From Diprion similis (taxonomy: Eukaryota; Arthropoda; Insecta; Hymenoptera; Diprionidae): a stretch of DNA of 64,000 nt. A program made the translations under genes and the position numbers. Shown one piece after another: positions 1 to 21,930 of this stretch. Each line of letters starts with the position of its first letter. The stretch's first letter is position 1. Below the pieces are notes generated by a model. That model searched no databases, was not told the origin of the DNA, and was given only the letters and a program-made list of their open reading frames with translations. The DNA is taken from assembly GCF_021155765.1 (NCBI RefSeq), contig NC_060117.1:6600001-6664000 (forward strand), written 5' to 3'.

Positions 1-594
1 CAAGGAATGAAGTCCAATGAGAACAAGGAGGAATCCCAACAGAGCGGGAAAAGCCAAGGAATGGAGACAAATCAGAAAAACGAGGGATACCAACAGAGCG
101 GGAAAAGCCAAGGAATGAAGTCCAATCAGAACAAGGAGGAATCCCACCAGAGCGGGAAAAGCCAAGGAATGGAGACAAATCAGAAGAACGAGGGATACCA
201 ACAGAGCGGCAAAAGCCACGGAATGGAGTCCAATCAGAACGAGGAGGAATACCAACAGAACGGGAAAAGCCAAGGAATGAAGTCCAATCAGAACAAGGAG
301 GAATCCCAACAGAGCGGGAAGAGCCAAGGAATGGAGACAAATCAGAAGAGCGAGGGATACCAACACAGCGGGAAAAGCCACGGAATGGAGTCCAATCAGA
401 ACGAGGAGGAATACCAACAGAGCGGGAAAAGCCAAGGAATGAAGTCCAATCAGAACAAGGAGGAATCCCAACAGAGCGGGAAAAGCCAAGGAATGGAGAC
501 AAATCAGAAGAGCGAGGGATACCAACAGAGCGGGAAAAGCCAAGGAATGGAGACAAGTCAGAAGAACGAGGGATACCAACAGAGCGGCAAAAGC
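1..594 (+). repeat. 54-bp coding tandem repeat, 11 copies
   Basis: Unit boundaries fall exactly every 54 bp (1, 55, 109 and so on to 541), each beginning CAAGGA or CACGGA followed by ATG. Two or three unit variants recur in order, so a higher-order period is visible. The array continues beyond the left edge of the window. Confidence 0.9.
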
Positions 595-702
595 CACGGA
601 ATGGTGTCCAATCAGAACCAACACAATGGGGCAGTCCAAGGCACGCAGACAAATCAGCAGAGAGGCGGACACAAATCGCTTCTAAGTTTGGAAATAAACT
701 GA
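1..702 (+). CDS. Gln/Asn/Ser/Lys-rich 18-residue repeat protein, 3' part
   Basis: The reading frame is open from base 1, so the 5' end and any signal peptide are outside the window; the first ATG at base 7 lies inside a repeat and is not the start. Eleven complete 18-residue units follow each other without a gap. They alternate between forms such as QGMKSNQNKEESQQSGKS, QGMETNQKNEGYQQSGKS and HGMESNQNEEEYQQSGKS. A degenerate twelfth unit leads to a short non-repeated tail ending in SLLSLEIN and TGA at 700-702. The composition is extremely hydrophilic (Gln, Asn, Ser, Lys, Glu, Gly) with no Cys, Trp or Pro. It lies 6 kb upstream of two secreted repeat proteins on the same strand, so a silk-glue or salivary secretory role is likely by context. 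I do not recognise a named family. Confidence 0.75.
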   Translation, partial: QGMKSNENKEESQQSGKSQGMETNQKNEGYQQSGKSQGMKSNQNKEESHQSGKSQGMETNQKNEGYQQSGKSHGMESNQNEEEYQQNGKSQGMKSNQNKEESQQSGKSQGMETNQKSEGYQHSGKSHGMESNQNEEEYQQSGKSQGMKSNQNKEESQQSGKSQGMETNQKSEGYQQSGKSQGMETSQKNEGYQQSGKSHGMVSNQNQHNGAVQGTQTNQQRGGHKSLLSLEIN

Positions 703-3893: not shown

Positions 3894-4500
3894 AGGTTCA
3901 GTGTCAAATGATGAATCTTGGATATGGAATACGGTCCAGTGCCTGTAATTTCACCAGTATTGGAACGCTCTATTTCATGTGGTTATACATTATTGGCACA
4001 GCATCGAATCACGGTGGCTGAATGCTGAACTTGGGTTGGTATTGGTAGTTTTACCAGAACTGGTGCTAGTAACATGAACAGTACTGGCTTAGCAGCGGTA
4101 AACAATGATTGGATACCGGGTCAGGGCCAGTAATCAGTAATGGTGATTCTACTAGTAAGCTGGTACTGAAAACATGGATCACTGTAGGTTTAGTACGGGT
4201 AAACAATGCTTGGATCTTGGATTCGCGTAAGTGATGGCGGTTTTGCTAGTGCAGTGAAATTCCCCAATAGCGGACAGCTTCGGGACCGGAAATCTTGTCT
4301 ACTATAGACAAGTGTTCGTTATTGGGAGGTATATTTTCCATTATGCTTTTCTGCCGAAGACTTCTAACTTGTCCGTTATAAAGAGAAGTTTCACTGTACT
4401 AGCACTTGAAATATGGAACAATTATGGTTCAGCGTCGGCAAATAACGTTTAGATATCGGTACTGAGTCAGGGCTGACGCTTATTACCAGTACCGGCAAAG
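3894..4500 (+). repeat. decayed ~100-bp tandem repeat
   Basis: At least four imperfect copies share a core. It reads GGTTCAGTGTCAAATGATGA near 3896, GCGGTAAACAATGATTGGAT near 4096, CGGGTAAACAATGCTTGGAT near 4197 and TCGGCAAATAACGTTTAGAT near 4435. Each is followed by a segment rich in CCAGTA / CTAGTA and GGTACTG. Stops occur in every frame, so it is not now coding. A short inverted-repeat element interrupts the array at 4252-4396. Confidence 0.5.
4252..4396. mobile_element. hAT-like MITE inside the decayed repeat
   Basis: The left end, CAGTGAAATTCCCCAATAGC, and the inverse of the right end, CAGTGAAACTTCTCTTTATA, match imperfectly and both run on into GGACA. CAGTG ends are typical of hAT elements. 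The flanking octamers TGCTAGTG (4244-4251) and TACTAGCA (4397-4404) match at 5 of 8 positions, with only transitions between them, as expected of an old 8-bp target duplication. An 8-bp palindrome with a 3-nt loop sits inside (4294-4312). There is no coding capacity. Confidence 0.5.
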
Positions 4501-5419: not shown

Positions 5420-6040
5420 ACGAGAGAAAAATTTGCAATGGAGAAACTGTTCGATAAAAACAAGCTTAAGAAACTAAATTACTTGCAATAATAAGGTGAG
5501 AATCGACACCTGCAATTATAATGATGGTTTCCCCACCGTGTATACCACAGACCAAGGAAAAGATGAAACGTTATACAAAGTAAGTTCTAAGCAACTTATC
5601 GAGTAACCATCAAAATACTGGCCGAGATGAGTGATTTAAATTAATTCAAAAACATGAAGCATAAAGATTTCACACCGGTGTTGATAATAACAAGATACTT
5701 GAAATGGAAAGAACACAGACGATGGACCGTAATTATGCAATGTAGGTTATTATTTTAACTAGTTTAGTCTAATGAAGGTATGTGGTCTTCACAAAAACAT
5801 TTCGTTGAGTAGATAATATACTTTTGAGTAGTGTGAAAAAACTATTGGGAGTCATTCAGAACAATTGGGTGTTTGTTATAGTTTTTTGATTATACCCGCC
5901 AGAGTACTTAATTAGGGCAGTTTGTAGTTTCATTATTTAAAGTTGTGATAGGTAAATTGCTTTCATACCTAAATATTGCAAGAACTGCTGATTGTTTGAT
6001 TTTGATAATTGCGAATACGTACTAGGTGAACATATCGATT
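5420..6040 (+). repeat. duplicated upstream block, copy A (before gene 2)
   Basis: The block aligns by eye, with many substitutions and small indels, to 19160-19770 upstream of gene 3. Anchors in order are CAAGCTTAAG (5461) with CAAGGTTAAG (19218); TGCAATTATAATGATGG with AGTAATTATGATGATGG; CACCGGTGTTGAT with TAACGGTGTTGAT; and GTTTTTTGATTATACCCGCC with GTTTTTTGATAATCTCCATC followed by AGAGTA, TAGTTTCATT and AAATTG. The conserved order and orientation relative to genes 2 and 3 indicate a segmental tandem duplication carrying the gene and its upstream region. Confidence 0.6.
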
Positions 6041-6225: not shown

Positions 6226-6756
6226 CAAAAGTGACCTTCGAGTGTGACAAACACCTTTGTTTAATTGATGTACAAAAAACAACATTTGTAATAAAAATAA
6301 AAGATTACCGATCACTAGTTTAGTCATTTGATTCAGATTCAGCTGGTATCCAGCAAAAATTATGCCATTCAGGTGCTAATTATTGTTGATAATAAAATTC
6401 GAAAAGATTTACGACTGCATTTGATAAATATTCTACAGCCTACTGGTCTTGTTGATGTGAAATTACTTCAATCTCACGTTTCGGACTTTACTACTCAACT
6501 ACTTATGGTGCTTTAAATTGAACTGGAGAATTAAAAATTAAGACTTGATTCATTCAATTCAATTGCAACTCATAATTGTAACATTTATGAAGAATTTAGC
6601 GTAGTGACGTGGCCTTTTACTATGGAGTTTTTTGAGTCTGAAATCTCTTCCGGGGGTATTCCTCAATGACGTGACACTGAAGACGTTGATCAATTTCATG
6701 TTGTCGTCTCGAGTCAAAACGATATAGTGCGCATGTTCAAACAATATTCACTTCAC

Positions 6757-6836
6757 AATATTTATGCAGGTGAATTTAAAGAAGAACTAACATGACTAAC
6801 AGAAGGCAAAGCGTCTACCTCAGATAAGTATAAAAG
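6757..6836 (+). promoter_or_regulatory. promoter of gene 2, with element shared with gene 3
   Basis: TATAAAAG at 6829-6836 is a consensus TATA box 62 bp before the ATG, placing the start of transcription near 6860. AATATTTATGCAGGTGAA at 6757 matches AATATTTATCCAGATGAA at 21181, about the same distance (72 and 67 bp) upstream of the gene 3 TATA box. Similar GAAGAA / GGAGAA and CATGA / TATGA steps follow. The shared spacing suggests the same tissue-specific control, probably a secretory gland; that is inference. Confidence 0.65.
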
Positions 6837-6890
6837 GAATGGTCTGTTAGGTGTAGATGATACATAGCCACTACGTCGAATCAGCTAACA

Positions 6891-9800
6891 ATGGGTAAAA
6901 TACTTAGACTGGTCGTGTTTGTGATTCTCTGCTACCACTTGGTAGAAAGTTTGCCAAACCGATTTGGCAGGAAACACAGAGGTTGCGGTGATTATTTGGG
7001 ACACGAATCAAGCTCAAAATTGAGACCATATGGCACCGGGTCGTTAGAAGAAACAGAAACTGGTTCTGAATCGAGTTTAAAAAATTACGGTCAACATCAT
7101 ATTAGGTCAGAAGCAGCAGATGAAGAGGTACCAAGATATTCGCGAAATAGTCACCGTCATCATGATGCTGGATCATTAGCGGCAAAAGGAGCAGGATCTA
7201 AATCATTGCACCACAGACATAGTAGTCACGGTGGTGCATCACCAGCGTCAGCAGTCGAAAGCCCTGGATCGTTGTCTCATAGTTACAGCAATAATGGTGT
7301 AGACAGTAACGATAATAATAGTGACGAGTCATCGACATCAACAACCATTAATTCGGATGAACACTCTGTATCCTTGTCAGAGACTGACGGTGAAAACCGT
7401 GACGGGTTATCGTCATTAAAAACAGGATCTGGACATTCCTCGAAATATCATGGTAATCATCACATCAGGCCATCACCGCTAGGAGTAGGAAGATCTAGAT
7501 CTCCGTTGAACAGTTACGCAGATAACTATGATAAGTTATCACAGACAGAATTGGCTCGATTTAGATATCTGGGAAACGGTTATGGTCATCATCACCCCAG
7601 GAATTATGATAGTCACTCGTTAGCGGAAGGAAAGTCGACGTACCCGGCACGGGGCTTTGACAATAATAACCATGGGTCATCGGTGAATTCAAAATTAGGA
7701 TCTGGATCTTCATCATACGGTCACAACAATGATAACGCGGAATCAGTGAATTCAAAGATAAAACCAGAATATTTCCTGAATAGTTACGATGATGACGATC
7801 CGTCAGATGTAAATGAATCTGAATCTTTGTTATTGGACAGCGACGATACTTACAGTGACATTTCATCGGTAAATTCAAAAGTAATATCAAAATCTTCGTC
7901 AAACAGTAACGCAGACGATGAGAACGATGCAGTGTCATCATCATCAAAATCAACGGCGTATGGATTTTCATCTGGCTATTACGGTAGTAAGGATGACAAC
8001 TCTTTATCTGACCCTTACGGTGATAAAGGCGGTAAGTCATCAGCATCAACAACAAGTGCGTCCGGGTCTTCCGCGACGGCTCAGAATGCAAACGATGCAG
8101 TGTCATCATCATCAAAGTCAACGGCGTCTGCATCTTCATTCGGCAATTCTGGTAATCAGGATGACAACTCTTTATCTCACCATTACGGTAATAACGGCGG
8201 TAAGTCATCAGCATCAACAACAAGTGCGTCCGGGTCTTCCGCGACGGCTCAGAATGCAAACGATGCAGTGTCATCATCATCAAAGTCAACGGCGTCTGCA
8301 TCTTCATTCGGCAATTCTGGTAATCAGGATGACAACTCTTTATCTCACCATTACGGTAATAACGGCGGTAAGTCATCAGCATCAACAACAAGTGCGTCCG
8401 GGTCTTCCGCGACGGCTCAGAATGCAAACGATGCAGTGTCATCATCATCAAAGTCAACGGCGTCTGCATCTTCATTCGGAAATTCTGGTAATCAGGATGA
8501 CAACTCTTTATCTCACCATTACGGTAATAACGGCGGTAAGTCATCAGCATCAACAACAAGTGCGTCCGGGTCTTCGGCGACGGCTCAGAATACAAACGGC
8601 GCAGTGTCATCATCAACGAAATCAACGGCGTTTGGATCTTCATCTGGCCGTTATGGAAGTGAGGATGACAACTCTTCATCTCACCATTACGGTGATAAAG
8701 GCGGTAAGTCATCAGCATCAACAACAAGTGCGTCCGGGTCTTCCGCGACGGCTCAGAATGCAAACGATGCAGTGTCATCATCATCAAAGTCAACGGCGTC
8801 TGCATCTTCATTCGGCAATTCTGGTAATCAGGATGACAACTCTTTATCTCACCATTACGGTAATAACGGCGGTAAGTCATCAGCATCAACAACAAGTGCG
8901 TCCGGGTCTTCGGCGACGGCTCAGAATACAAACGGTGCAGTGTCATCATCAACGAAATCAACGGCGTTTGGATCTTCATCTGGCCGTTATGGAAGTGAGG
9001 ATGACAACTCTTCATCTCACCATTACGGTGATAAAGGCGGTAAGTCATCAGCATCAACAACAAGTGCGTCCGGGTCTTCGGCGACGGCTCAGAATACAAA
9101 CGGTGCAGTGTCATCATCAACGAAATCAACGGCGTTTGGATCTTCATCTGGCCGTTATGGAAGTGAGGATGACAACTCTTCATCTCACCATTACGGTGAT
9201 AAAGGCGGTAAGTCATCAGCATCAACAACAAGTGCGTCCGGGTCTTCCGCGACGGCTCAGAATGCAAACGATGCAGTGTCATCATCATCAAAGTCAACGG
9301 CGTCTGCATCTTCATTCGGCAATTCTGGTAATCAGGATGACAACTCTTTATCTCACCATTACGGTAATAACGGCGGTAAGTCATCAGCATCAACAACAAG
9401 TGCGTCCGGGTCTTCGGCGACGGCTCAGAATACAAACGGTGCAGTGTCATCATCAACGAAATCAACGGCGTTTGGAGCTTCATCTGGCCGTTATAGAAGT
9501 GAGGATGACAACTCTTCATCTCACCATTACGGTGATAAAGGCGGTAAGTCATCAGCATCAACAACAAGTTCGTCCGGGTCTTCGGCGACGGCTCAGAATA
9601 CAAACGGTGCAGTGTCATCATCAACGAAATCAACGGCGTTTGGATCTTCATCTGGCCGTTATGGAAGTGAGGATGACAACTCTTCATCTCACCATTACGG
9701 TGATAAAGGCGGTAAGTCATCAGCATCAACAACAAGTGCGTCCGGGTCTTCCGCGACGGCTCAGAATGCAAACGATGCAGTGTCATCATCAACGAAATCA

Positions 9801-12800
9801 ACGGCGTTTGGATCTTCATCTGGCCGTTATGGAAGTGAGGATGACAACTCTTCATCTCACCATTACGGTGATAAAGGCGGTAAGTCATCAGCATCAACAA
9901 CAAGTGCGTCCGGGTCTTCCGCGACGGCTCAGAATGCAAACGATGCAGTGTCATCATCAACGAAATCAACGGCGTTTGGATCTTCATCTGGCCGTTATGG
10001 AAGTGAGGATGACAACTCTTCATCTCACCATTACGGTGATAAAGGCGGTAAGTCATCAGCATCAACAACAAGTGCGTCCGGGTCTTCCGCGACGGCTCAG
10101 AATGCAAACGGTGCAGTGTCATCATCATCAAAGTCAACGGCGTCTGCATCTTCATTCGGAAATTCTGGTAATCAGGATGACAACTCTTTATCTCACCATT
10201 ACGGTAATAACGGCGGTAAGTCATCAGCATCAACAACAAGTGCGTCCGGGTCTTCGGCGACGGCTCAGAATACAAACGGTGCAGTGTCATCATCAACGAA
10301 ATCAACGGCGTTTGGATCTTCATCTGGCCGTTATGGAAGTGAGGATGACAACTCTTCATCTCACCATTACGGTGATAAAGGCGGTAAGTCATCAGCATCA
10401 ACAACAAGTGCGTCCGGGTCTTCCGCGATGGCTCAGAATGCAAACGATGCAGTGTCATCATCGTCAGAATCAACGGCGTCTGGATCTTCATTCGGCAGTC
10501 CTGGTTATGAGGATCATAACTCTTCATCTCACCATGACAGTGATGATGGCAGCGAATCATCAGCATCAACAAAAACTCAACCTGGGTGTTCATCGAAGAC
10601 TGACGATGCTAACGATGCTGCGTCATCATCATTAACAACATCGACATCTGAATCTTCATATGGCGGTGACGGTTATGAGGGTGATAACTCTTTATCCCAT
10701 CATTATGGTGATAAAGGCGGTGAGTCATTAACATCAACAAGTGCGTCCGGGTCTTCCGCGACGACTCAGAATGCAAACGAAGCAGTGTCATCATCATCAA
10801 AATCGACGGCGTCTGCATCTTCATTCAACAGTCCCAGTAATAAGGATAAGAACTCTTTATCTCATCATTACGGTGATAAAGACGGTAAGTCATCAGTATC
10901 AACAACAAGTGCGTCCGGGTCTTCCGCGACGGCTCAGAATGCAAACGATGCAGTGTCATCATCATCAGAATCAACGGCGTCCGGATCTTCATTCAGCAGT
11001 CCCGGTAGTGAGGATGACAACACCTCATCTCACCATTACGGTGATGAAGGCGGTAAGTTATCAGCATCGACAACAAGTGCGTCCGGGTCTTCCGCGACGG
11101 CTCAGAATGCAAACGATGCAGTGTCATCATCATCAAAGTCAACGGCGTCTGCATCTTCATTCGGCAATTCTGGTAATCAGGATGACAACTCTTCATCTCA
11201 CCATTACGGTGATAAAGGCGGTAAGTCATCAGCATCAACAACAAGTGCGTCCGGGTCTTCGGCGACGGCTCAGAATACAAACGGTGCAGTGTCATCATCA
11301 ACGAAATCAACGGCGTTTGGATCTTCATCTGGCCGTTATGGAAGTGAGGATGACAACTCTTCATCTCACCATTACGGTGATAAAGGCGGTAAGTCATCAG
11401 CATCAACAACAAGTGCGTCCGGGTCTTCCGCGACGGCTCAGAATGCAAACGATGCAGTGTCATCATCATCAAAGTCAACGGCGTTTGGATCTTCATCTGG
11501 ACGTTATGGAAGTGAGGATGACAACTCTTCATCTCACCATTACGGTGATAAAGGCGGTAAGTCATCAGCATCAACAACAAGTGCGTCCGGGTCTTCCGCG
11601 ACGGCTCAGAATGCAAACGATGCAGTGTCATCATCATCAAAGTCAACGGCGTTTGGATCTTCATCTGGACGTTATGGAAGTGAGGATGACAACTCTTCAT
11701 CTCACCATTACGGTGATAAAGGCGGTAAGTCATCAGCATCAACAACAAGTGCGTCCGGGTCTTCCGCGACGGCTCAGAATGCAAACGATGCAGTGTCATC
11801 ATCATCAAAGTCAACGGCGTCTGCATCTTCATTCGGCAATTCTGGTAATCAGGATGACAACTCTTCATCTCACCATTACGGTTATAACGGCGGTAAGTCA
11901 TCAGCATCAACAACAAGTGCGTCCGGGTCTTCGGCGACGGCTCAGAATACAAACGGTGCAGTGTCATCATCAACGAAATCAACGGCGTTTGGATCTTCAT
12001 CTGGCCGTTATGGAAGTGAGGATGACAACTCTTCATCTCACCATTACGGTGATAAAGGCGGTAAGTCATCAGCATCAACAACAAGTGCGTCCGGGTCTTC
12101 CGCGACGGCTCAGAATGCAAACGATGCAGTGTCATCATCATCAAAATCAACGGTGTCTGCATCTTCATTCGGCAGTCCTGGTTATAAGGATCACAACTTT
12201 TTACCTTACCATTACGGTAATAAAGGCGGTAAGTCATTAACATCATCAAGTGCGTCCGGGTCTTCCGCGACGGCTCAGAATGCAAACGATGCAGTGTCAT
12301 CATCATCAAAATCAACGGCGTCTGCATCTTCATTCGGCCGTCCTGGTTATAAGGATCACAACTTTTTACCTTACCATTACGGTAATAAAGGCGGTAAATC
12401 ATTAACATCATCAAGTGCGTCCGGGTCTTCCGCGACGGCTCAGAATGTAAACGATGCAGTGTCATCATCATCAAAATTAACGGCGTCTGCATCTTTATTC
12501 GGCCGTCCTGGTTATAAGGATCACAACTTTTTACCTTACCATTACGGTAATAAAGGCGGTAAGTCATTAACATCATCAAGTGCGTCCGGGTCTTCCGCGA
12601 CGGCTCAGAATGCAAACGATGCAGTGTCATCATCATCAAAATCAACGGCGTCTGCATCTTCATCCGGCGATAACAGTTATAAGGGTGTCGAGTCAATAAT
12701 GCCGAAAATTGAATCTAGACCTTGGTTTAACAATGACCACCATAAAGGCATCAAGTCATCAATATTACCACAAGGAGAATACAGACTTCTATCCCACATT

Positions 12801-13100
12801 TATGGTGATAACGGTGACGATTCATCATCTTCAGCGGACACGGAATCTTCCTCCTACAGTTACAGTGATAATAGTGACGAGTCGTCGACGTCAACAGTAT
12901 CAGAATATGACTATTCTTCTATGAATAACAATGATAACAGCGACGAGTCATTATTGTCAGCACAAGTGGAACCTCGATACTCGTTCAATCAGTACGGTGG
13001 TGGAAAAAAATCTGGAACTCCATCCAACAGTCACGGTAACTATGGCAGCGGATCGTCAACGTCAGCAGCAGCAGAATCCTCATCTTCGTCTAGCAGTTAA
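6891..13100 (+). CDS. secreted serine-rich giant repeat protein (sericin- or glue-like)
   Basis: This is an uninterrupted 2069-codon frame with no sign of introns. Residues 1-20 form a signal peptide (basic start MGKI, hydrophobic core, then VES before LP). Residues 23 to about 390 are Ser/His/Asn/Asp/Gly-rich and mostly non-repeated. From about 391 to 1927 there are some 28 copies of a 56-residue unit containing ASGSSATAQN, DAVSSSSKST and SHHYG. The C-terminal part is Ser/Asn/Asp/Tyr-rich and ends in a run of serines. Serine is by far the commonest residue; cysteines are almost absent (one near residue 32, one in a divergent unit). Composition, signal peptide, single exon and TATA promoter match insect sericins, silk glues and salivary glue proteins as a class. 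I cannot assign a named gene. The ATG at 6891 is chosen because it starts the signal peptide and follows the TATA box. Confidence 0.9.
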   Translation: MGKILRLVVFVILCYHLVESLPNRFGRKHRGCGDYLGHESSSKLRPYGTGSLEETETGSESSLKNYGQHHIRSEAADEEVPRYSRNSHRHHDAGSLAAKGAGSKSLHHRHSSHGGASPASAVESPGSLSHSYSNNGVDSNDNNSDESSTSTTINSDEHSVSLSETDGENRDGLSSLKTGSGHSSKYHGNHHIRPSPLGVGRSRSPLNSYADNYDKLSQTELARFRYLGNGYGHHHPRNYDSHSLAEGKSTYPARGFDNNNHGSSVNSKLGSGSSSYGHNNDNAESVNSKIKPEYFLNSYDDDDPSDVNESESLLLDSDDTYSDISSVNSKVISKSSSNSNADDENDAVSSSSKSTAYGFSSGYYGSKDDNSLSDPYGDKGGKSSASTTSASGSSATAQNANDAVSSSSKSTASASSFGNSGNQDDNSLSHHYGNNGGKSSASTTSASGSSATAQNANDAVSSSSKSTASASSFGNSGNQDDNSLSHHYGNNGGKSSASTTSASGSSATAQNANDAVSSSSKSTASASSFGNSGNQDDNSLSHHYGNNGGKSSASTTSASGSSATAQNTNGAVSSSTKSTAFGSSSGRYGSEDDNSSSHHYGDKGGKSSASTTSASGSSATAQNANDAVSSSSKSTASASSFGNSGNQDDNSLSHHYGNNGGKSSASTTSASGSSATAQNTNGAVSSSTKSTAFGSSSGRYGSEDDNSSSHHYGDKGGKSSASTTSASGSSATAQNTNGAVSSSTKSTAFGSSSGRYGSEDDNSSSHHYGDKGGKSSASTTSASGSSATAQNANDAVSSSSKSTASASSFGNSGNQDDNSLSHHYGNNGGKSSASTTSASGSSATAQNTNGAVSSSTKSTAFGASSGRYRSEDDNSSSHHYGDKGGKSSASTTSSSGSSATAQNTNGAVSSSTKSTAFGSSSGRYGSEDDNSSSHHYGDKGGKSSASTTSASGSSATAQNANDAVSSSTKSTAFGSSSGRYGSEDDNSSSHHYGDKGGKSSASTTSASGSSATAQNANDAVSSSTKSTAFGSSSGRYGSEDDNSSSHHYGDKGGKSSASTTSASGSSATAQNANGAVSSSSKSTASASSFGNSGNQDDNSLSHHYGNNGGKSSASTTSASGSSATAQNTNGAVSSSTKSTAFGSSSGRYGSEDDNSSSHHYGDKGGKSSASTTSASGSSAMAQNANDAVSSSSESTASGSSFGSPGYEDHNSSSHHDSDDGSESSASTKTQPGCSSKTDDANDAASSSLTTSTSESSYGGDGYEGDNSLSHHYGDKGGESLTSTSASGSSATTQNANEAVSSSSKSTASASSFNSPSNKDKNSLSHHYGDKDGKSSVSTTSASGSSATAQNANDAVSSSSESTASGSSFSSPGSEDDNTSSHHYGDEGGKLSASTTSASGSSATAQNANDAVSSSSKSTASASSFGNSGNQDDNSSSHHYGDKGGKSSASTTSASGSSATAQNTNGAVSSSTKSTAFGSSSGRYGSEDDNSSSHHYGDKGGKSSASTTSASGSSATAQNANDAVSSSSKSTAFGSSSGRYGSEDDNSSSHHYGDKGGKSSASTTSASGSSATAQNANDAVSSSSKSTAFGSSSGRYGSEDDNSSSHHYGDKGGKSSASTTSASGSSATAQNANDAVSSSSKSTASASSFGNSGNQDDNSSSHHYGYNGGKSSASTTSASGSSATAQNTNGAVSSSTKSTAFGSSSGRYGSEDDNSSSHHYGDKGGKSSASTTSASGSSATAQNANDAVSSSSKSTVSASSFGSPGYKDHNFLPYHYGNKGGKSLTSSSASGSSATAQNANDAVSSSSKSTASASSFGRPGYKDHNFLPYHYGNKGGKSLTSSSASGSSATAQNVNDAVSSSSKLTASASLFGRPGYKDHNFLPYHYGNKGGKSLTSSSASGSSATAQNANDAVSSSSKSTASASSSGDNSYKGVESIMPKIESRPWFNNDHHKGIKSSILPQGEYRLLSHIYGDNGDDSSSSADTESSSYSYSDNSDESSTSTVSEYDYSSMNNNDNSDESLLSAQVEPRYSFNQYGGGKKSGTPSNSHGNYGSGSSTSAAAESSSSSSS
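8061..12672 (+). repeat. 168-bp coding tandem array, about 28 copies
   Basis: The unit length is 168 bp (for example AAGTGCGTCCGGG at 8054 and 8222). Two main unit types alternate irregularly. Type A has TCTTCCGCGACG, ANDA and ASASSFGNSGNQ. Type B has TCTTCGGCGACG, NTNG and AFGSSSGRYGSE. Some units are hybrids. Units in the central parts are almost identical at silent sites. More divergent units sit around 10480-11060 and 12120-12660, where FLPYHYG variants occur in tandem. Confidence 0.95.
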
Positions 13101-13175
13101 TCTCCGTCGAATAAATCCGGTACCCACGGTGACGGTCCATCACTGTATGCATAAGTAGGATGTGGATCCTAGTAC

Positions 13176-13181
13176 AATAAA
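13176..13181 (+). terminator. poly(A) signal of gene 2
   Basis: AATAAA lies 76 bp after the TAA stop and is followed by a T/G-rich stretch (GTTGTTGCGG). A weaker AATAAA at 13110-13115 lies just after the stop. The 3' untranslated region would be only about 100 nt. Confidence 0.6.
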
Positions 13182-13209
13182 TGTGATTAAAGTTGTTGCG
13201 GATACGGTT

Positions 13210-14990
13210 TCGTCACAAGCAGAGATATTGCTTAGTACAGAAAATCATGCCGTGATCATGAGTATTGTTAAGTTTTACGAGACATTCTTTCCTTTTTCTG
13301 ATGCCAACTGTACGCTGCCTTGAATCCAACCGTCCTAGTCAGTTTCAATTATTGTACCAGTTTAAACATGAATCAAATCAGTAATACCGGCTACTACCTG
13401 AAACATGCTTTTGAACGCTAGACTAGCTTCGCAGGCTATTTAGATTCTCCCGCAACTTTGAATTTCTTCTGGAAAGTCAAGTGAATGCTAGAACTGTACC
13501 ATATTAGCAAAAACTTATTACTTCCTTTCTGCTTCACCCATAGCTTCTGATCAACATATCCTCTAGGTCTAAGCTTGAAAATAACTTTGCCACGAATACT
13601 TCTGTCTGTGGCTGTATCACACTCATTTCTGATCCGTACCAACAGTCCGATTAATTTAGACTATTACTCAACGTTATTCGTCTATTGAATTATCAGCATC
13701 AACAAATTCTGGTGTATTTCTCAACTATAGCCAAATAAGGAGGAACATTATGAAATATGTCTGGTACCACGTTTTTATGTGATCTTTACCCTCTGCTTAT
13801 AATATTCCACCAAAACAACACCTCCGCAGGCAGCCACGATTTTACAACTGCCACATCATCACCTGACGGACTGCTATTAGGTATAATCTCATTCAGAGAA
13901 ACTTTACAATCGCTGAAATATTACGATGCGACGGGGATCACGATTCGAGATTCTTCACATGATTTTTGAAAAATTTATACACTACAACTCACTCTTTATT
14001 TATAGTTGAATGGATTAATCTAATTATTCATAATGCGTAACCTTTACTATCTATCATTAATTTCAGTACAGCCCCAGGTCGTTGACTTTTCTTTGAACAA
14101 TGAAACTGATACGTATCTTCTGCACAAAAATGAGTTTCAGTGCTGTTATAATCACAATCAGCATTCATATGCATCGTTTTATGGATATACCTGAATAAAT
14201 TCACATTCATCAAACTACCTACTTTCGTTCATTACTTTTCGAAAACTTGCCGATTCGGATAGTGCATCGATTTTAATGAGCGGTATTGTAGATTTTTCGA
14301 GCTAACGATTCAATTAAATTAGTTAATTATCTCTATCGATATTTTCCTTCCACCTGTCGTTCGACTTGTTCCGTCGAACATGATCACTCTATTTATTAAT
14401 GCACAACTGATATTCACTTGTTTGTCACTATATATTTTGTATCGTTTTCCCAAATAAATATATGTCAACTGTTTCACCCAAAATTCAAGCATCTTATTCT
14501 CCTATTAAAAAAACAAGAAACAATATCCATTATGGCCATGGTTGTCCTTGCTTTTCCGCATTCGCCACAACGTCTTTGCGGTCACTTCAACAGCTTCATC
14601 TGGAAAATTCGTCTGTTACCTACAGACTTACTCGTTCGCTAAATCGTTTCGTCATTTTTAGGCTACGAGCAAAGGTGGAAAAGTAGGACCTTGAATACAC
14701 CCAAGATAAATTCAATCTATCTATTCAATTCCTATCTCTCCAATCTTACTCTTAGCTAGATAATTTGCAACACATAGATTTTCGGGTACTTGATATTTTA
14801 TCATTCTACAATGTTATTATTTTGCTTTATTTTGAGTCATTGAAGACCTCGTAATTTCTGAAATGAAAAAGCTATGGCTAAATGTATGGAGCACGGTGCT
14901 GCCGCTTGCTGTAATGCGGTTGAATCTGCAGCACAACGCGAGTCGATCGCGACACGTTGCTGCTTGTTTCATGGAAGACTGCGATCAGGT
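13210..14990. other. spacer with no supported gene
   Basis: This is A+T-rich sequence with only short chance frames. I see no splice-linked coding, no RNA gene and no clear repeat. Confidence 0.4.
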
Positions 14991-14997
14991 TCTTATA

Positions 14998-15423
14998 GGG
15001 AAGAGTGGGCACGACGGCCCCCCTAAGCCGGTTACAACTTTTTGTGGCCTTTTACCATCAAATTAATTTATTTTTGTTTTACTTTGATCAAATTCACAGA
15101 AATGTTACCAAAACTCTAAAAAAAACATTTTTTTTTCTGGGCACGGCGGTCCCTCTCAAAAGTAATAGAAAAGTCAATTTTCTCCAGGAAATGGTAAATT
15201 GGCCTGAAATAGCCTAAGTCGGTGGATACTCTAAATTTGCAACAATGCAAACAGGATAGAAATTTTTTTTTACTCAATTTTGGGGTGGTCCATTATGCTC
15301 CAGATATCTCATATTGGGCTAAAAATAAGTAAATACATCAAATTTACGATAATTTGGCAGAATGAAATAAAAAATTTTTTTGGCCAAATTTTTGAGGGGG
15401 GCCGTCGTGCTCCAACCCTCCTC
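14998..15423. mobile_element. MITE with G-rich terminal inverted repeats and TA flanks
   Basis: The left end, from 14998, reads GGGAAGAGTGGGCACGACGG and runs into a C run. The inverse of the right end reads GAGGAGGGTTGGAGCACGACGG and runs into a matching C run. Both ends touch a TA dinucleotide (14996-14997 and 15424-15425), the target duplication of Tc1/mariner-type elements. Internally, degenerate copies of the terminal motif recur (GGGCACGGCGGTCCCTCT near 15139, GGGGTGGTCCATTATGCTCC near 15283). There is no transposase; it would depend on one supplied from elsewhere. Confidence 0.6.
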
Positions 15424-15425
15424 TA

Positions 15426-18078
15426 CATAAACTCGAGGGTTTCGTTCCTATGCTAAAAGTGTGATGCAAACATTTTGTATATTGTATCAGTTAGTCTGTT
15501 ATTCAGTAACGTGCGACAAGTACGAGTATCTATCACGGTTAAATTGCTGCACAAAACTCGATACCTAGGGTTTTCGAAACTATATTTATCCGCCAACTAA
15601 TTCGATAATCCGTAAGTTAATCAGATTATCTCGTAATTTATACATATATCACGTTTATGTTATTATATTCCAAGCTCCAATGAGACGGATTTTTGATTCG
15701 ACCATTTGATTTGGAGAGATTAACAAAAATGTTCGCAAAAGTTTCAAAAAGTCGCAATCTAATGAAAAAAACCGCAGATAAGGCAAATTTTGATTTCTAA
15801 GAACTCCTAAAAAATCGACAAAATTCTAAAGTCTTGGATTTTGTATTTTAGATATGGCGTTCATTTGCAAAAATGCCCACCGTTTTGCGAAACGTTTTCT
15901 GCAAAGTTCCACTTGAACTGATGCACAGGAGTTAATTTATAAGATGTTTGAAAACTTTTTTTTTCGTTTTGAAACGAAATCTTACAACTTTCGAATGCTT
16001 AAATAAGACAATTGTTGTCAATTGTAGGTTTATCTTCTTTACTACCATTTGTTGGTGAGTCTAACTACTTAACTACAAAAACTGGGTAACATGTTTTCAT
16101 GCATGAATTTCAAGTGATAAATGTGAAATACGAATTAAAATGATTTGTAAAATATAAAGTGGTATACTATATACTATAAATATTTATATTTTTCCTAATA
16201 GATGAGATACGCTTTATTCATTGTTATTTTATTTTGGACGTGCCTACCTAATTTTATTCTTTACAAACACCTGCAGTCCTTTGTATTACGGTAGCTTTAG
16301 GGACATTACGTAGATAGTCAAAATTCGACTGCGTTGCATGTCTGATTAACGTATTAGATTTTTCAGAGTTTGGCAACGACGAGTTATATCATTGTGAAAG
16401 CTTTGTATATTAACTTTCTATGAAATGAAATGGGAACATTTCAGAAATTACCCAGCTTCGTTGAATATCAATAAATATATAAAATGAGATTATAAAATGA
16501 ATTCAGTCTTGTGTCAGGAGAATTTGTAGAAATGTATGAAAGCATCCAAAGTGGATTTCCGGTCAAAATGAAAAGTGAGTTACCGGTAAGACCTTATTCA
16601 AACCAGCTGATTGTTTTTGTCGTTTCGACGTATCAAGGAAGCAGCATGAAATCTCAAAAAACGACTGGAAAAACGCCATTTTGAATTGCGAGCGAATAAG
16701 ACGCTATTTCAAGTATACCTTTATTTTTTCTGAAATTAGGTTGGCAACCTTATTTATAAAAATTAAATCAAATGTAAAAATGTAGAGACAGAGACTGAGG
16801 GTATAAAATCGTCAGATTGGACAAGAATATAGTAAGCTAAAACGTATAATGATTGCAAAATCCTGTCAATTCTTTATTTCGGCTGTCTGTATTTTACCTC
16901 CTTATGCTTAGACTTGTGGACGTCCCGTTTAGGTAATAATATTATCGGTAAAGATTTATTAAAAACTTTTAAATATTTTCTCTAAATGATAAAATATAAC
17001 TAAAATTCATTTCAGAGTACAGAATAGAAAAAAAGTAACACCTGGCTAAAATCGCAAGGAGCACTTTGATGGGTGGTTTAGTCGTGAAATATTTTTGTGG
17101 ATTTCAATAAAATAAAAAACCTGCGTATTAGGTCGTTGATACCCACGAGTTCTCTTTTATAGTTACTGCAAAGTACTTGAATCATCGCAGGTCAAATAAT
17201 CAAAGTTCTACTGCACGATATTATGCAAGTTTTTGAATTCTTATTTGCCGAGCGGTAATGTTATCAACCTAATTTCGAGAAAAATATATATACTTGAGAT
17301 AGCGTCGTTTTCAGGCGTATTCTAAAAAAGCATGTTATCATTTTTATACGTCGGTTTTATGGTGGTCGCCGATGGAGGCTCACGATCAGCGCGTCTGATT
17401 TCATTCGCACAACGGCTTTCCTTTCTTCGTCAGGCTACTGAAAGATAAACTAACCTCCCACCGATTCTGGAACTGTGAGTGTGTAATGTCGTCGTTGAAT
17501 TTTTCGGAGAACAATTCGCAATCGGATGGATATTTCCATCCAGATTTAAGGATGGTAAAGAAACTCTCAAAGACTTTCCTGAAGCTTGAAATTTGATAAT
17601 GATACGCGTGATAAGCAGCATCTGTAAAGTAAAACCTGAGGTCTGGTGGTTTTGTGTGAAGACTGCTAAAATTGAAACCTCATACCTCAAAAACTTTTTA
17701 TTTACACCTATGGAACTAAAACAATAATACATTACGATACGAGAGCAACATGATAGACGTTTATAGGTTAGTATGATGTTTTTAGTACGAACCGTAGCTG
17801 GAGCCGAGACGAAGATGAGTTCTGAAAACATCGCACTAGCCACAACGCTTCGTATCGTACCGTATTTTTTTAATCATTGGATGAAAAAGTGCGTAACATG
17901 AATATTGTCGCGCCCGATAGTCATGCGCAAAACGTTCTGCGCAGTTTGTTGTGGCACGACAAAAAGTACCACAATACGTTCGCTCCAGTGCTCTCGATTT
18001 CAATAGAAACTTCTATCTTTCGTAGGATTTTCCACGAGGTGCTTGAAGGATTTCGTGACCATTGAAAACAACTCGAGC
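15426..18078. other. spacer with no supported gene
   Basis: This is A+T-rich sequence with homopolymer runs. A 137-codon minus-strand frame at 17430-17843 is of a length expected by chance in 64 kb and shows no domain. A small G+C-richer patch at 17340-17460 contains a 29-codon frame, which I do not call. Confidence 0.4.
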
Positions 18079-18706
18079 AGCGTTAAATTCCGACAGTCTC
18101 AAAATCATTTCATGTTTTTTTTCTGACATTCCATTTGGCAAGAAACGCACCTTGAATTTTTTTCAAATCTTTTTCTTAAATCGTTTATTTTTCATAAGTA
18201 TTTGAGGTCGATTGCGAATGTCCATTTTTAAAATCTGAAAAACATTCTCAAAAACCCAGTGAATGACACATTATGACATGACTACACTCTCTCGGTGTAA
18301 TTGTAGATATCTTTTACTGAATAGAGTTGCGCATCATCAAATTGGTGAAACCGAACATTTAAAAGTAAATTGACGCTTATTTGACGCTTCCGATTTGATC
18401 CTGTGTTAATGCTGAGTTAAAAAATTTCGAAATTCCGAATTAGGTGTAAAAACAAAAATAGAAAAAAATTCGATCCACTTTTTCCTTAACACGAGGGGTG
18501 TTTTGTGGCATTCACTGGATTTCTGAAATTTTTTTCAGATTTAAAAAAATCGGCATTTGCAATCGACTTGAAATATTTGCGAAAAATAAACGGTGTGGTA
18601 AAAAAATTTGAGAAAAATTCGGGTCGCTTTTTTTTTACCGAGTAGAATGTTAGAAAAAAACATGAATACCCCATAGGTTTTTAGTCTTTGGGGCGTTTTG
18701 AACGCT
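18079..18706. mobile_element. foldback element with ~200-bp inverted arms
   Basis: The left arm (18079-18270) and the right arm (18504-18706) are imperfect inverse copies along their whole length. Both contain, in order, AGCGTT, TTTCATGTTTTTTT or its near match, CGTTTATTTTTC, GTCGATTGC, AAATCTGAAAAA and CCAGTGAATG. The ~230-bp centre is A+T-rich and non-coding. This is the structure of a long-arm MITE or foldback transposon. Target duplications are not clear. Confidence 0.65.
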
Positions 18707-19159
18707 AAGGGGTTGATTGTGTTGATGGAATGCAATGCGGAACGCACTGATTTAGCGAAAATCAACTTCATCATGTATAATAAAATTAGTCATGCCTCGT
18801 TGTAATAATAGATACAGGTAACAGCTCATGTTCATGCCAATATTTTTGAGCTGGCTATCGTGAAGATCGGAACGTAATGCCGGTAACGATTATTGTTAAA
18901 CTCGTAAAATGGTTAGGTTGTCAATTGCAATGAGTAAATAATTATACGACTGAAACCCAGACGAGCGTTCGACGCTCGGTGTGCTTTGCATAAAATAATT
19001 TTAGCCAGTCATCGCAGCTAAGCGTGAATATTATTCTCTTGTGGTAGCGACGGAACGCCCTATTTTCACGTATCCAGTGGGGTATAGACAACAACTTGCA
19101 GACTTGCAGCTATGTGAATAAATATATGAAAAATAATGAAAATACTTTTAAAAAATAGG

Positions 19160-19770
19160 CGAGAAAAATAATCAAGCAGCGCGAAACATTCGCAACGAAG
19201 AAGATATAAATAAAAAACAAGGTTAAGTAACCAAACGCCTTACGATAATAATTTTAAAATCAACACCAGTAATTATGATGATGGATCTTCCGCAATGTCT
19301 ATCGCAAATGAAGTGGAATTAGAAGTGTTAGAAAGAAAGAAGTTGTGAGGAAATGATTAAGTAGGAGTATGAATACTTAACGTAAATGTTTTTAATCGAT
19401 TAAAAAACATGACGCAAAGCATTTTTAACGGTGTTGATTGCATTTACAGAATACGTAGAATCAACAGATATTGACCAGTGAGTCTGAAATTCGTATCGTA
19501 ATGAATATAACAATTGACGGTTCATTTTAACGATTTCACATGTTTGTAGAAAAATGTTTTGCTTTTAGGACAACATATTTTGAATATTGTGTGTAATATT
19601 GAAAATCAGTCGGTACCATCAGATTTTTATTAGTTTTTTGATAATCTCCATCAGAGTATCTTCGTGTCGTCGATAGTTTCATTGCGTAAGGGTCACAATG
19701 TGAAATTGTTTCCAAATAATGACCAGCAATCAAAATCCGAGTCATTTACGTAGATCTTAGTTTATCCCCA
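19160..19770 (+). repeat. duplicated upstream block, copy B (before gene 3)
   Basis: This is the counterpart of 5420-6040, in the same order and orientation. It lies about 1.5-2.1 kb before the gene 3 ATG; copy A lies 0.85-1.5 kb before gene 2. The difference in distance could reflect the foldback-rich and tandem-repeat sequence added near gene 3. Confidence 0.6.
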
Positions 19771-20981
19771 TTCAAGCACTTTTGTACATTTTTAGTCCTC
19801 AAACCGACACAGATTTAATTTCTGTAATTTTTTTTCCAAACTGCACCTTCGAAGTACTATGATACACATTTTACTATTGTAACTGGGAGTTTACAAAAAT
19901 ATAATATAAATATAAATATATAATTTATAAAAATAAAGGCAGTTGGGGCCTCTTAAACCCCATTCAGACTTTGATGTAAAATATTTAATTGCATAAGTAT
20001 AATAATCGTTATACGAACCGTTTTTTGAATTTTGTATTATTATAAAACTGTTTAAAGGGATTGTACGAATAAAGAAGTTACACGTAAACTTTTTTGAACT
20101 CTGTGTTTAAGAATACATAGGAAGTACGAAGTTCAAAAAACTGCAAATTTGTATTTAGAACATAAATTCAAACAGAATCTTAACAGATTTATTGAAAAAA
20201 AAAAAAAAATAATTTCCAATACGGTGTATCGAAATAGTTTTTTTTTTATCGTGGCCTTGGATGTTTTTTTTGGAGAAATAGATTCTAATGAAAGCATAAA
20301 ATCACTGAAAATCGACAAAATTTGATGTTGTATGAATTGTGAAAATGTGGGCGTGTCACTTATGTCGATTGAAATTTGACTCTAGGCACCTTGTATCCAA
20401 AAAAGAGTATAACAGCCCCATTTTTCACGCAGTACCGAACAGTAGACCCCAAAACATTTCCGTTTATTCTGAAACGAAGAACCGGCATGGTTTCAAATTA
20501 CTTTGCCCCTCCAATAGCTCGAGCTAGACTCGTTTGGCCACCGGTTTGATTTAGGAATAGAGCCGCGGGTTCTTATACAAACGTAATTGTCCAACGCTCG
20601 TCAATAAAACATATGTACTGGGAAAAGCGTCAACCAATTCTTAGAAAAAGCCGCTTTTTGGAGGGAACACTATACTTCAGTGTAAAATTCGTCAATTGCA
20701 TCAAAGTTTACAATTCCTGATATATGTAAGGATGGGATAAAAAATGTAGTCGACAGATCGATAGTGTCTAAAAAAGTAATCCTTGCATATTCTTGGATCT
20801 AAAAAGCAGTTTTATGAATCAGAATTTCCAAAAAATTTATGTGAATTTACTAAAGACGGAACGGGGATATCTATTATACACTTACGTAGTTGACTCTAGT
20901 CAACTCGATGAATATTTCTAGCCATATCACGATCACACATCTGAAAAATATCATTCTGCGATGAGCGATTCAGTTTGTTGC

Positions 20982-21081
20982 TGCAATCTGTCTAAATTAT
21001 TGTGAATGAAAGCTAAATATGACAATATTGATGCAATCTGCATGAAATATTGTGAATGCAAGCTAAATATCACAATATTTC
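20982..21081 (+). repeat. 50-bp tandem duplication upstream of gene 3
   Basis: Two units of 50 bp (20982-21031 and 21032-21081) share TGCAATCTG, ATTGTGAATG, AAGCTAAATAT and ACAATATT. A third start, TGCAACCTT, follows directly. They end about 100 bp before the conserved promoter element of gene 3. A duplicated control element is possible. Confidence 0.7.
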
Positions 21082-21180
21082 TGCAACCTTATTGTAGTAC
21101 AGTATGTATACGCGCAAGGTTGTCATGATGCTAGAATTTTTCTGATACATTTTTTATCGTTCGGGGACTAGTCATGTCAT

Positions 21181-21255
21181 AATATTTATCCAGATGAACT
21201 TGGAGGAGAAGTGGTATGATTTCCTTCAGACGGTTATCGCGCACGAGTATAAAAA
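21181..21255 (+). promoter_or_regulatory. promoter of gene 3
   Basis: TATAAAAA at 21248-21255 lies 62 bp before the ATG, the same distance as in gene 2. The element AATATTTATCCAGATGAA at 21181 matches the one at 6757 upstream of gene 2. The agreement in position and sequence supports common descent and co-regulation. Confidence 0.65.
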
Positions 21256-21309
21256 GAAAGAATTGGAAGGTATAGAAGTTACACGTCTACAGAGTTACCT
21301 AAGTTCAAG

Positions 21310-21930
21310 ATGAGTAAAATAATTATACTAGTACTTGTAGCTGCTCTCTGCCACTGTCTGGTAGAGAGTATGCCATCTAGTGGTTCTCAATCATCGTCGA
21401 CATCCGATGCTAAGGGAAGTAGTTTAACTGAAGGACTCACAGATACTGGAAAGTCTACGGCAAAATCGGCGACAAGCGCTGCTTCAACTGCTGAGTCATC
21501 AGCAGGATCTGATAGCAAAGGGGGTAGCGATAAAAAGGGCAACGACGATAAGTCGGGAAGTGGAAAGGACAAAGACCCTGGCTCAGGAAATAAAGGTACA
21601 TCGAAGGATAAAGGCAGCGATCCAGGAAGTTCAAAATCACCGAAGGCTGCCAATGGAGGTGGCACTAGTCCAGGATCTTCAACTTCACCGGGCACTGGGG
21701 GCGGTACTGGCAATGGGGGCACTGGGGGCGGTACTGGCAATGGGGGCACTGGGGGCGGTACTGGTACTGGGGGCACTGGGGGCACTGGGGGCACTGGGGG
21801 CACTGGGGGCACTGGGGGCGGTACTGGTACTGAGGGCGGTACTGGCACTGGAAATTCAACTTCACCGGGCACTGGGGGCGGTGATGACTGCGACAACAAA
21901 CTACTTTGCGCTGAACTCACCCTCGGTTAG
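21310..21930 (+). CDS. secreted Ser- and Gly/Thr-rich repeat protein, paralogue of gene 2
   Basis: This is a single-exon frame of 206 aa. Residues 1-20 are a signal peptide that matches that of gene 2 at 12 of the first 22 positions (K3, I4, L7, V8, L13, C14, then LVES and P22). Residues about 23-125 are Ser/Lys/Asp/Gly-rich with SSTSDAKGSS, SAGSDSKGG and SGKDKDPGSG. Residues about 127-190 are a Gly-Thr repeat built from GTGG / GTGN units, flanked on both sides by STSPGTGGG. The C-terminus (DDCDNKLLCAELTLG) has two cysteines that could allow disulphide linkage. With the matching promoter it is a co-regulated secretory paralogue of gene 2 with a different core. A silk, glue or cement component is plausible; the function is unproven. 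Confidence 0.85.
   Translation: MSKIIILVLVAALCHCLVESMPSSGSQSSSTSDAKGSSLTEGLTDTGKSTAKSATSAASTAESSAGSDSKGGSDKKGNDDKSGSGKDKDPGSGNKGTSKDKGSDPGSSKSPKAANGGGTSPGSSTSPGTGGGTGNGGTGGGTGNGGTGGGTGTGGTGGTGGTGGTGGTGGGTGTEGGTGTGNSTSPGTGGGDDCDNKLLCAELTLG
21690..21882 (+). repeat. 9-bp GGCACTGGG-type coding repeat
   Basis: Units of GGCACTGGG and GGCGGTACTGGCAATGGG follow one another, coding for Gly-Thr-Gly steps. Five GGCACTGGG units in direct succession occur near 21771-21820. Copy number in such repeats is usually variable between individuals. Confidence 0.85.

Follow-up and report, generated by a model that had tools for sequence, protein, structure and literature searches.

In the mammalian REST genes (semenogelins, SVS proteins and elafin precursor), a conserved signal-peptide exon is combined, within a tandem locus, with fast-evolving repetitive secreted cores; in the parts of the published account used here, these genes are described as having mostly three exons, with a conserved 3' exon, and their cores as turning over through repeat expansion and new splice acceptors, with homologous sequence remaining in an intron (PMC7556508). 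The corresponding parts of other accounts describe comparable arrangements in insects. The Hessian-fly SSSGP salivary genes form tandem clusters in which the promoter, the 5' untranslated region (UTR) and the signal peptide are conserved and the mature parts are diversified; the encoded proteins are small (252-484 bp for the mature coding part of SSSGP-1), the leaders are nearly identical, and the 3' UTRs and the intron are conserved as well (PMC2955719). In the pea-aphid KQY/KHI cassette genes, a single secretory signal is joined to novel coding regions composed of many tiny exons (37 in KQY1a), and the loci are mostly scattered (PMC7495047). Lepidopteran sericins are secreted, fast-evolving proteins with Ser-rich repeats, encoded by clustered genes in moths (PMC9745057). 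Among hymenopteran silks other than the collagen silk of sawflies, few have been analysed in detail, according to a review (PMC12976744). Here, a locus is described that consists of three tandem genes, denoted gene 1, gene 2 and gene 3, encoded on one strand within 25 kb at the left end of a 64,000-nucleotide stretch of contig C13 (positions 6600001-6664000, hereafter the window; negative window positions lie to the left of it).

Each of the three predicted genes is characterised by a TATA box located 62 bp before the ATG, a related 22-residue leader and a low-complexity core unlike those of the other two. It appears moderately probable that they represent a tandem family of secreted structural proteins, most likely forming part of a glandular secretion that solidifies after leaving the body, such as silk coat, sericin-like or glue proteins. 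A sequence-only reading of the window had recognised genes 2 and 3 and proposed that an expression-plus-secretion cassette is kept while the repeat cores turn over. The cassette proposal is supported, and is strengthened by gene 1 and by two homologous DNA blocks; both genes stand, whereas their number has to be corrected, given that a third paralogue, gene 1, starts 3.5 kb to the left of the window.

Promoter, leader and homologous upstream DNA

A BLASTN comparison of genes 2 and 3 identifies a cassette block that covers the promoter, the 5' leader and the predicted signal peptide (Table 1), with 133 of 212 alignment columns identical and an E-value of 1e-15; in both genes, the homology stops at the last base of codon 22. 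The two leaders are identical in 12 of 22 residues, as had been pointed out from the sequence. When the residues are permuted within the n, h and c regions (20,000 trials, scored by BLOSUM and by identity), the BLOSUM score of this match is never reached and the identity is reached twice. Random signal peptides, approximated here by such region-wise shuffles, had been named as the comparison that could overturn the cassette idea, and they do not overturn it.

A second, distal block, with 336 of 547 columns identical (E-value of 2e-30, BLASTN), is shared by the two genes 0.9-2.1 kb upstream. Because the DNA that separates the two blocks yields no BLASTN match between the two genes at an E-value of 0.01, the distal block is perhaps under constraint, possibly as a shared gland enhancer, or has been homogenised. 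No support was obtained for regarding it as the tail of a lost gene, since no coding periodicity is seen in the comparison of positions 5426-5577 with 19183-19334, where the mismatches at the three positions amount to 16/51, 21/51 and 14/50. In the segments compared, no shared block directly follows the stop codons of genes 2 and 3.

The equal placement of the TATA box in genes 2 and 3, which had been claimed before, is confirmed, and the spacing in gene 1 is identical (-62). In 264 kb of DNA, both strands included, there are 2588 ATGs with 25 open codons behind them; TATAAA is placed exactly at -62 in 4 of these, against an average of 2.0 per offset, and genes 1, 2 and 3 account for three of the four. 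A scan of the same 2588 frames for likeness to the leaders gives, after the self scores of 128 and 123, a score of 67 for gene 1 and then drops to 31. The gene 1 ATG is at C13:6596502, and its leader, MNKIIVLLIIGALCHQRTSGRPSHG, is related to those of genes 2 and 3. It is identical to the gene 3 leader in 10 of 22 residues, a level reached by 1 of 20,000 shuffles in the BLOSUM score and by 40 in identity. A genome-wide search (269 Mb in 60 contigs, as in all genome-wide searches here) started with the gene 3 leader identifies, up to an E-value of 10, gene 1 (E-value of 0.65) and nothing else apart from gene 3 itself.

The upstream element attributed to both genes 2 and 3 is likewise recovered. 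With up to two mismatches, it has three matches in the window against 0.13 expected, the third being at 55007-55024 with two mismatches; genome-wide, there are four exact matches, genes 2 and 3 included (one for the reversed control pattern). A leader of this type is not found beside the other two exact matches in the 490-501 bp inspected, and the element itself is not found at gene 1, where the best candidate in the 400 bp searched has six mismatches. A pattern that runs from the TATA box to the leader has 13 genome-wide matches (4 for the reversed control), of which only those in genes 1 and 3 read as a leader; gene 2 does not fit this pattern. One of the matches, on contig C4, was rejected as a leader, being a poly-Leu frame of 36 residues with a score of 19. 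A 50-bp tandem repeat (2.2 copies, window 20978-21086) ends about 95 bp before the upstream element of gene 3.

Several observations weigh against the grouping of all three genes in one family. The resemblance between the leaders of genes 1 and 2 is modest (7 of 22 residues identical; 19 of 20,000 shuffles reach the score and 741 the identity); the genome search with the gene 3 leader misses gene 2; and the gene 2 leader extended by 32 further residues recovers only gene 2 genome-wide. Furthermore, the splicing of gene 1, the expression of all three genes and the gland concerned are predictions. An additional gene copy upstream of gene 1, represented by a 15-residue match near window -8299, is not claimed because the match is short and is embedded in DNA that, by eye, resembles a mobile element; in the cluster scan described below, however, this site outscores the gene 1 intron (81 versus 77).

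Dissimilar cores and the predicted intron of gene 1

The mature proteins of genes 2 and 3 had been described as quite different, and this description holds. The gene 2 protein (29.9% Ser) contains 29 in-frame unit starts uninterrupted by stop codons, with 28 spacings, 24 of 56 and 4 of 55 amino acids. The 24 units of 56 amino acids show pairwise nucleotide identity of 74-100% (mean of 91%), and 10 of the 276 pairs are identical. The ratio of nonsynonymous to synonymous substitution rates (dN/dS) between the units is about 0.85, as estimated for 245 of the 276 pairs after exclusion of those that were identical, had dS of 0.01 or less or failed. The array fits expansion with the frame kept under weak or relaxed constraint on the sequence. 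In the gene 3 protein (Gly 32.1%, Ser 17.4%, Thr 15.8%), a Ser/Lys/Asp-rich part is followed by a Gly-Thr core that starts at position 21691 and a short tail with two Cys residues. The mature protein of gene 1 is rich in Glu (20.6%) and Lys (17.3%).

For gene 1, the predicted model includes a strict donor (GGCG/GTGAGT, the slash marking the splice) 103 bp after the ATG and an in-frame acceptor 1570 bp further on, resulting in a protein of 876 amino acids. With the criteria applied, no second two-exon model exists for the gene 1 ATG; among 3000 control ATGs, such a model is obtained for 3. A genome search with the first 143 residues of exon 2 yields nothing beyond exon 2 itself at an E-value of 1 or lower. 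When gene 1 is translated through the donor, it reads HKSGGEYFGVES, to be compared with HRGCGDYLGHES at a nearly equal distance from the leader in gene 2; 10 of 1000 shuffles score as high as the best ungapped 11-residue match that the two genes show directly behind the leader. Two more short pieces of the gene 1 intron (SYGNNNDD.. and KIKSGPWFFN) resemble non-repeat parts of gene 2. For the start of the intron, the three scores are reached by 2, 37 and 20, respectively, of 1500 240-bp control windows, none of which reaches all three or their sum.

These observations are compatible with the following scenario. The three genes would have arisen through tandem duplication; the promoter and the leader would have been retained for the strong co-expression in one gland and the access to the secretory path that they provide, and the cores would turn over because their composition and repetitiveness matter more than their sequence. 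One route of turnover would be the expansion and homogenisation of short repeats, as in the gene 2 array and the Gly-Thr tract of gene 3. In a second and less certain route, splicing would have replaced the core of gene 1: a donor site may have formed just inside an old, gene-2-like core, which then decayed within the intron, with another exon now providing the mature protein.

The evidence for the latter step is mixed, and replacement of a spliced-out old core in gene 1 is best described as possible to likely. The pieces resembling gene 2 are short and distributed over two frames, and they had been noticed before the test was made; over the whole gene 1 intron, 56/400 and 41/400 controls are equally good; and in a cluster scan, a site near window -8400, which is treated as chance, outscores the intron (81 versus 77), all of which count against a relic of the old core. 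A bolder and rather doubtful extension is that this is an undescribed hymenopteran family in which structural cores succeed one another at a single docking site, the promoter-plus-leader cassette; the first intron of gene 1 would then be a former core in decay, its place having been taken by a coding exon that originated independently. In that case, novel secreted materials would be gained here through the capture of cores by an expression slot already in place. Gene 1 offers a direct test of whether a core can be replaced through splicing.

A quite conceivable, although not favoured, alternative is ordinary divergence, whereby one ancestral core underlies all three genes and the similarity has been lost through slippage and drift, with nothing replaced. 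Age alone could explain why the cores of genes 2 and 3 are no longer similar because the DNA between the two upstream blocks is also unalignable, which is another point against turnover of the cores; the fast change of the repeat arrays, as reflected in the dN/dS value, and the mixed evidence on the intron relic point in the same direction. In the case of gene 1, however, the likeness to gene 2 runs from exon 1 into the predicted intron, and the beginning of exon 2 is without another genomic match, both of which are at odds with divergence of a single core.

Table 1. Positions of the three genes and of their shared elements (window positions unless the contig is given).
Feature	Position	Strand	Remark
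Gene 1, exon 1	C13:6596502-6596604	+	predicted
Gene 1, intron	C13:6596605-6598174	+	predicted
Gene 1, exon 2	from C13:6598175 to window 702	+	predicted
Gene 1, 3' end of exon 2	1..702	+	Glu/Lys/Gln-rich repeats, stop 700-702
Distal upstream block, gene 2	5426..5965	+	homologous to 19183-19714; candidate shared control element or duplication relic
Cassette, gene 2 (promoter, 5' leader, signal peptide)	6745..6956	+	homologous to 21169-21375
Upstream element, gene 2, AATATTTATGCAGGTGAA	6757..6774	+	
TATA box, gene 2, TATAAAA	6829..6835	+	62 bp before ATG
Gene 2	6891..13100 (with stop)	+	single open reading frame, 2069 amino acids, Ser-rich
Predicted signal peptide, gene 2, MGKILRLVVFVILCYHLVESLP	6891..6956	+	
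Gene 2 array	7923..12668	+	about 28 units of 168 bp (56 amino acids)
Distal upstream block, gene 3	19183..19714	+	partner of 5426-5965
Cassette, gene 3 (promoter, 5' leader, signal peptide)	21169..21375	+	homologous to 6745-6956
Upstream element, gene 3, AATATTTATCCAGATGAA	21181..21198	+	
TATA box, gene 3, TATAAAA	21248..21254	+	62 bp before ATG
Gene 3	21310..21930 (with stop)	+	single open frame, 206 amino acids

Elsewhere in the locus, a decayed 29-base repeat in three copies is present between genes 1 and 2 (window 4039-4454) and may be what remains of another repeat core. An inverted repeat with arms of about 165 bp and 78% identity is located between genes 2 and 3 (window 18109-18270 and 18504-18666) and may be a mobile-element hairpin. 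Further to the right, the window contains a single open frame of 2409 amino acids with many C2H2 zinc fingers (42709-49938). Within the 400-600 bp inspected, the starts of contigs C1, C2 and C13 consist of TTAGG-type telomere repeats; a satellite repeat different from TTAGG fills the final 600 bases at the right end of C13. The matches listed for the insect odorant-receptor family, at least 103, lie on contigs with numbers up to C14. A 66-residue piece of the odorant co-receptor has its best PDB matches in chains 8v00_A and 6c70_A (98 bits), followed by four other chains with 87 bits, one of them labelled Drosophila, and by 8z9a_A, labelled ApisOrco, with 74 bits. Since 6c70 is from a fig wasp, the host, an insect, is probably hymenopteran; ApisOrco is taken to be from the pea aphid, and a honeybee origin of that chain would make its low score an argument against this placement. 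A diprionid sawfly with 14 chromosomes, such as Diprion similis, would fit.

Protein-family searches and the likely product

The leader of the signal-peptide type, the large, repetitive, hydrophilic and Ser-rich protein of gene 2, the TATA promoter, for which a short 5' UTR is expected, and the tandem arrangement of sister genes together suggest an abundant gland secretion. Among such secretions, a silk coat, sericin-like or glue protein would be the first choice, at about even odds. In Pfam searches with genes 2 and 3 and with the N-terminal 245 residues of gene 1, no family exceeds its cut-off. Below the threshold, gene 2 matches Fungus-induced and, with 26.2 bits against a cut-off of 27, an integrin-like Ig domain, the latter treated as an artefact of low complexity. 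Gene 3 matches New_glue (PF21827) with 19.8 bits, below the gathering cut-off of 31, and is not among the three genomic matches of this profile at an E-value of 0.1 or lower. An open frame on another contig (C10:22418229-22418480) does match New_glue above the cut-off (42.6 bits). Searches of NCBIfam, a bacterial and archaeal library, with genes 2 and 3 and the C-terminal 233 residues of gene 1 return no family, and gene 2 has no PDB match at an E-value of 0.01 or better. Fibroin P25 (PF07294) has no genomic match at an E-value of 1 or lower, in a search that included no positive control.

The same family and the same cassette logic could also serve another product, such as accessory-gland, egg-coating, venom or cuticle-associated secreted proteins, an interpretation that differs from the preferred one in function alone and is possible, if not the first to be chosen. 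The gland is not named by the composition and the leader; the REST and SSSGP genes, of the seminal vesicle and of saliva, respectively, have, in the parts of the accounts used, an equal architecture; and the match of gene 3 to New_glue is below the threshold. By analogy alone, the long repetitive protein of gene 2, with its high Ser content, is closer to sericins than to small effectors or venom peptides. Coincidence, i.e., the general resemblance of signal peptides and the similar placement of TATA boxes, is highly improbable and was rejected: the middle part of each leader is strongly hydrophobic, as is typical of signal peptides, but the shuffles, which preserve these regions, never reach the BLOSUM score of genes 2 and 3, and the noncoding DNA of these genes matches as well.

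In the open-access literature, covered at the level of titles and the starts of abstracts, no description of this three-gene family was found among the matches listed, and the parts of PMC13239252 and PMC3280245 that were used contain nothing on it. The low similarity retained by the cores of silk and glue genes makes these genes difficult to follow; a fixed leader and promoter offer a means of locating them in sawflies and in other insects with little-studied silks.

Comparison with known systems

Of the silk proteins, the sericins resemble the present family in secretion, gene clustering and fast evolution, but in the high Ser content of tandem repeats they resemble gene 2 only (29.9%, 56-residue units); genes 1 and 3, with 8.1% and 17.4% Ser, respectively, are not dominated by Ser, and the host is probably not a moth. 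The collagen silk of the sawfly Nematus (PMC12976744) possibly shares the gland and the insect group with the proteins analysed here. It differs from them in sequence type, given that Gly-Pro-Pro and Gly-Pro are both absent from genes 1, 2 and 3. The coiled-coil silk of aculeates consists of Ala-rich coiled coils; judging by composition alone, the proteins of genes 1, 2 and 3, with 0.4%, 10.4% and 5.4% Ala, respectively, are not of this type.

With respect to gene organisation, the KQY/KHI genes are similar in that one secretory signal is combined with differing coding regions, although they have many exons and mostly scattered loci. In the SSSGP genes, a conserved promoter and signal peptide are followed by diversified mature parts in tandem genes, in contrast to which the family described here has divergent leaders and two long repetitive cores. 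The REST genes share the conserved promoter and signal peptide, the unrelated cores and the tandem arrangement, the part held in common by gene 1 being the leader and the TATA spacing. The present genes differ in being from an insect, and genes 2 and 3 in being single open frames with no shared block directly behind the stop codons. They are not placed in the REST family itself, which is distinguished by a conserved noncoding 3' exon and a mammalian locus, and no sequence relation to it is claimed. Because the pattern of a kept cassette and changing cores is known from the REST, SSSGP and pea-aphid cassette genes, the three genes look like a new family of a known kind, in which a promoter and a secretion signal are shared by differing repetitive bodies.

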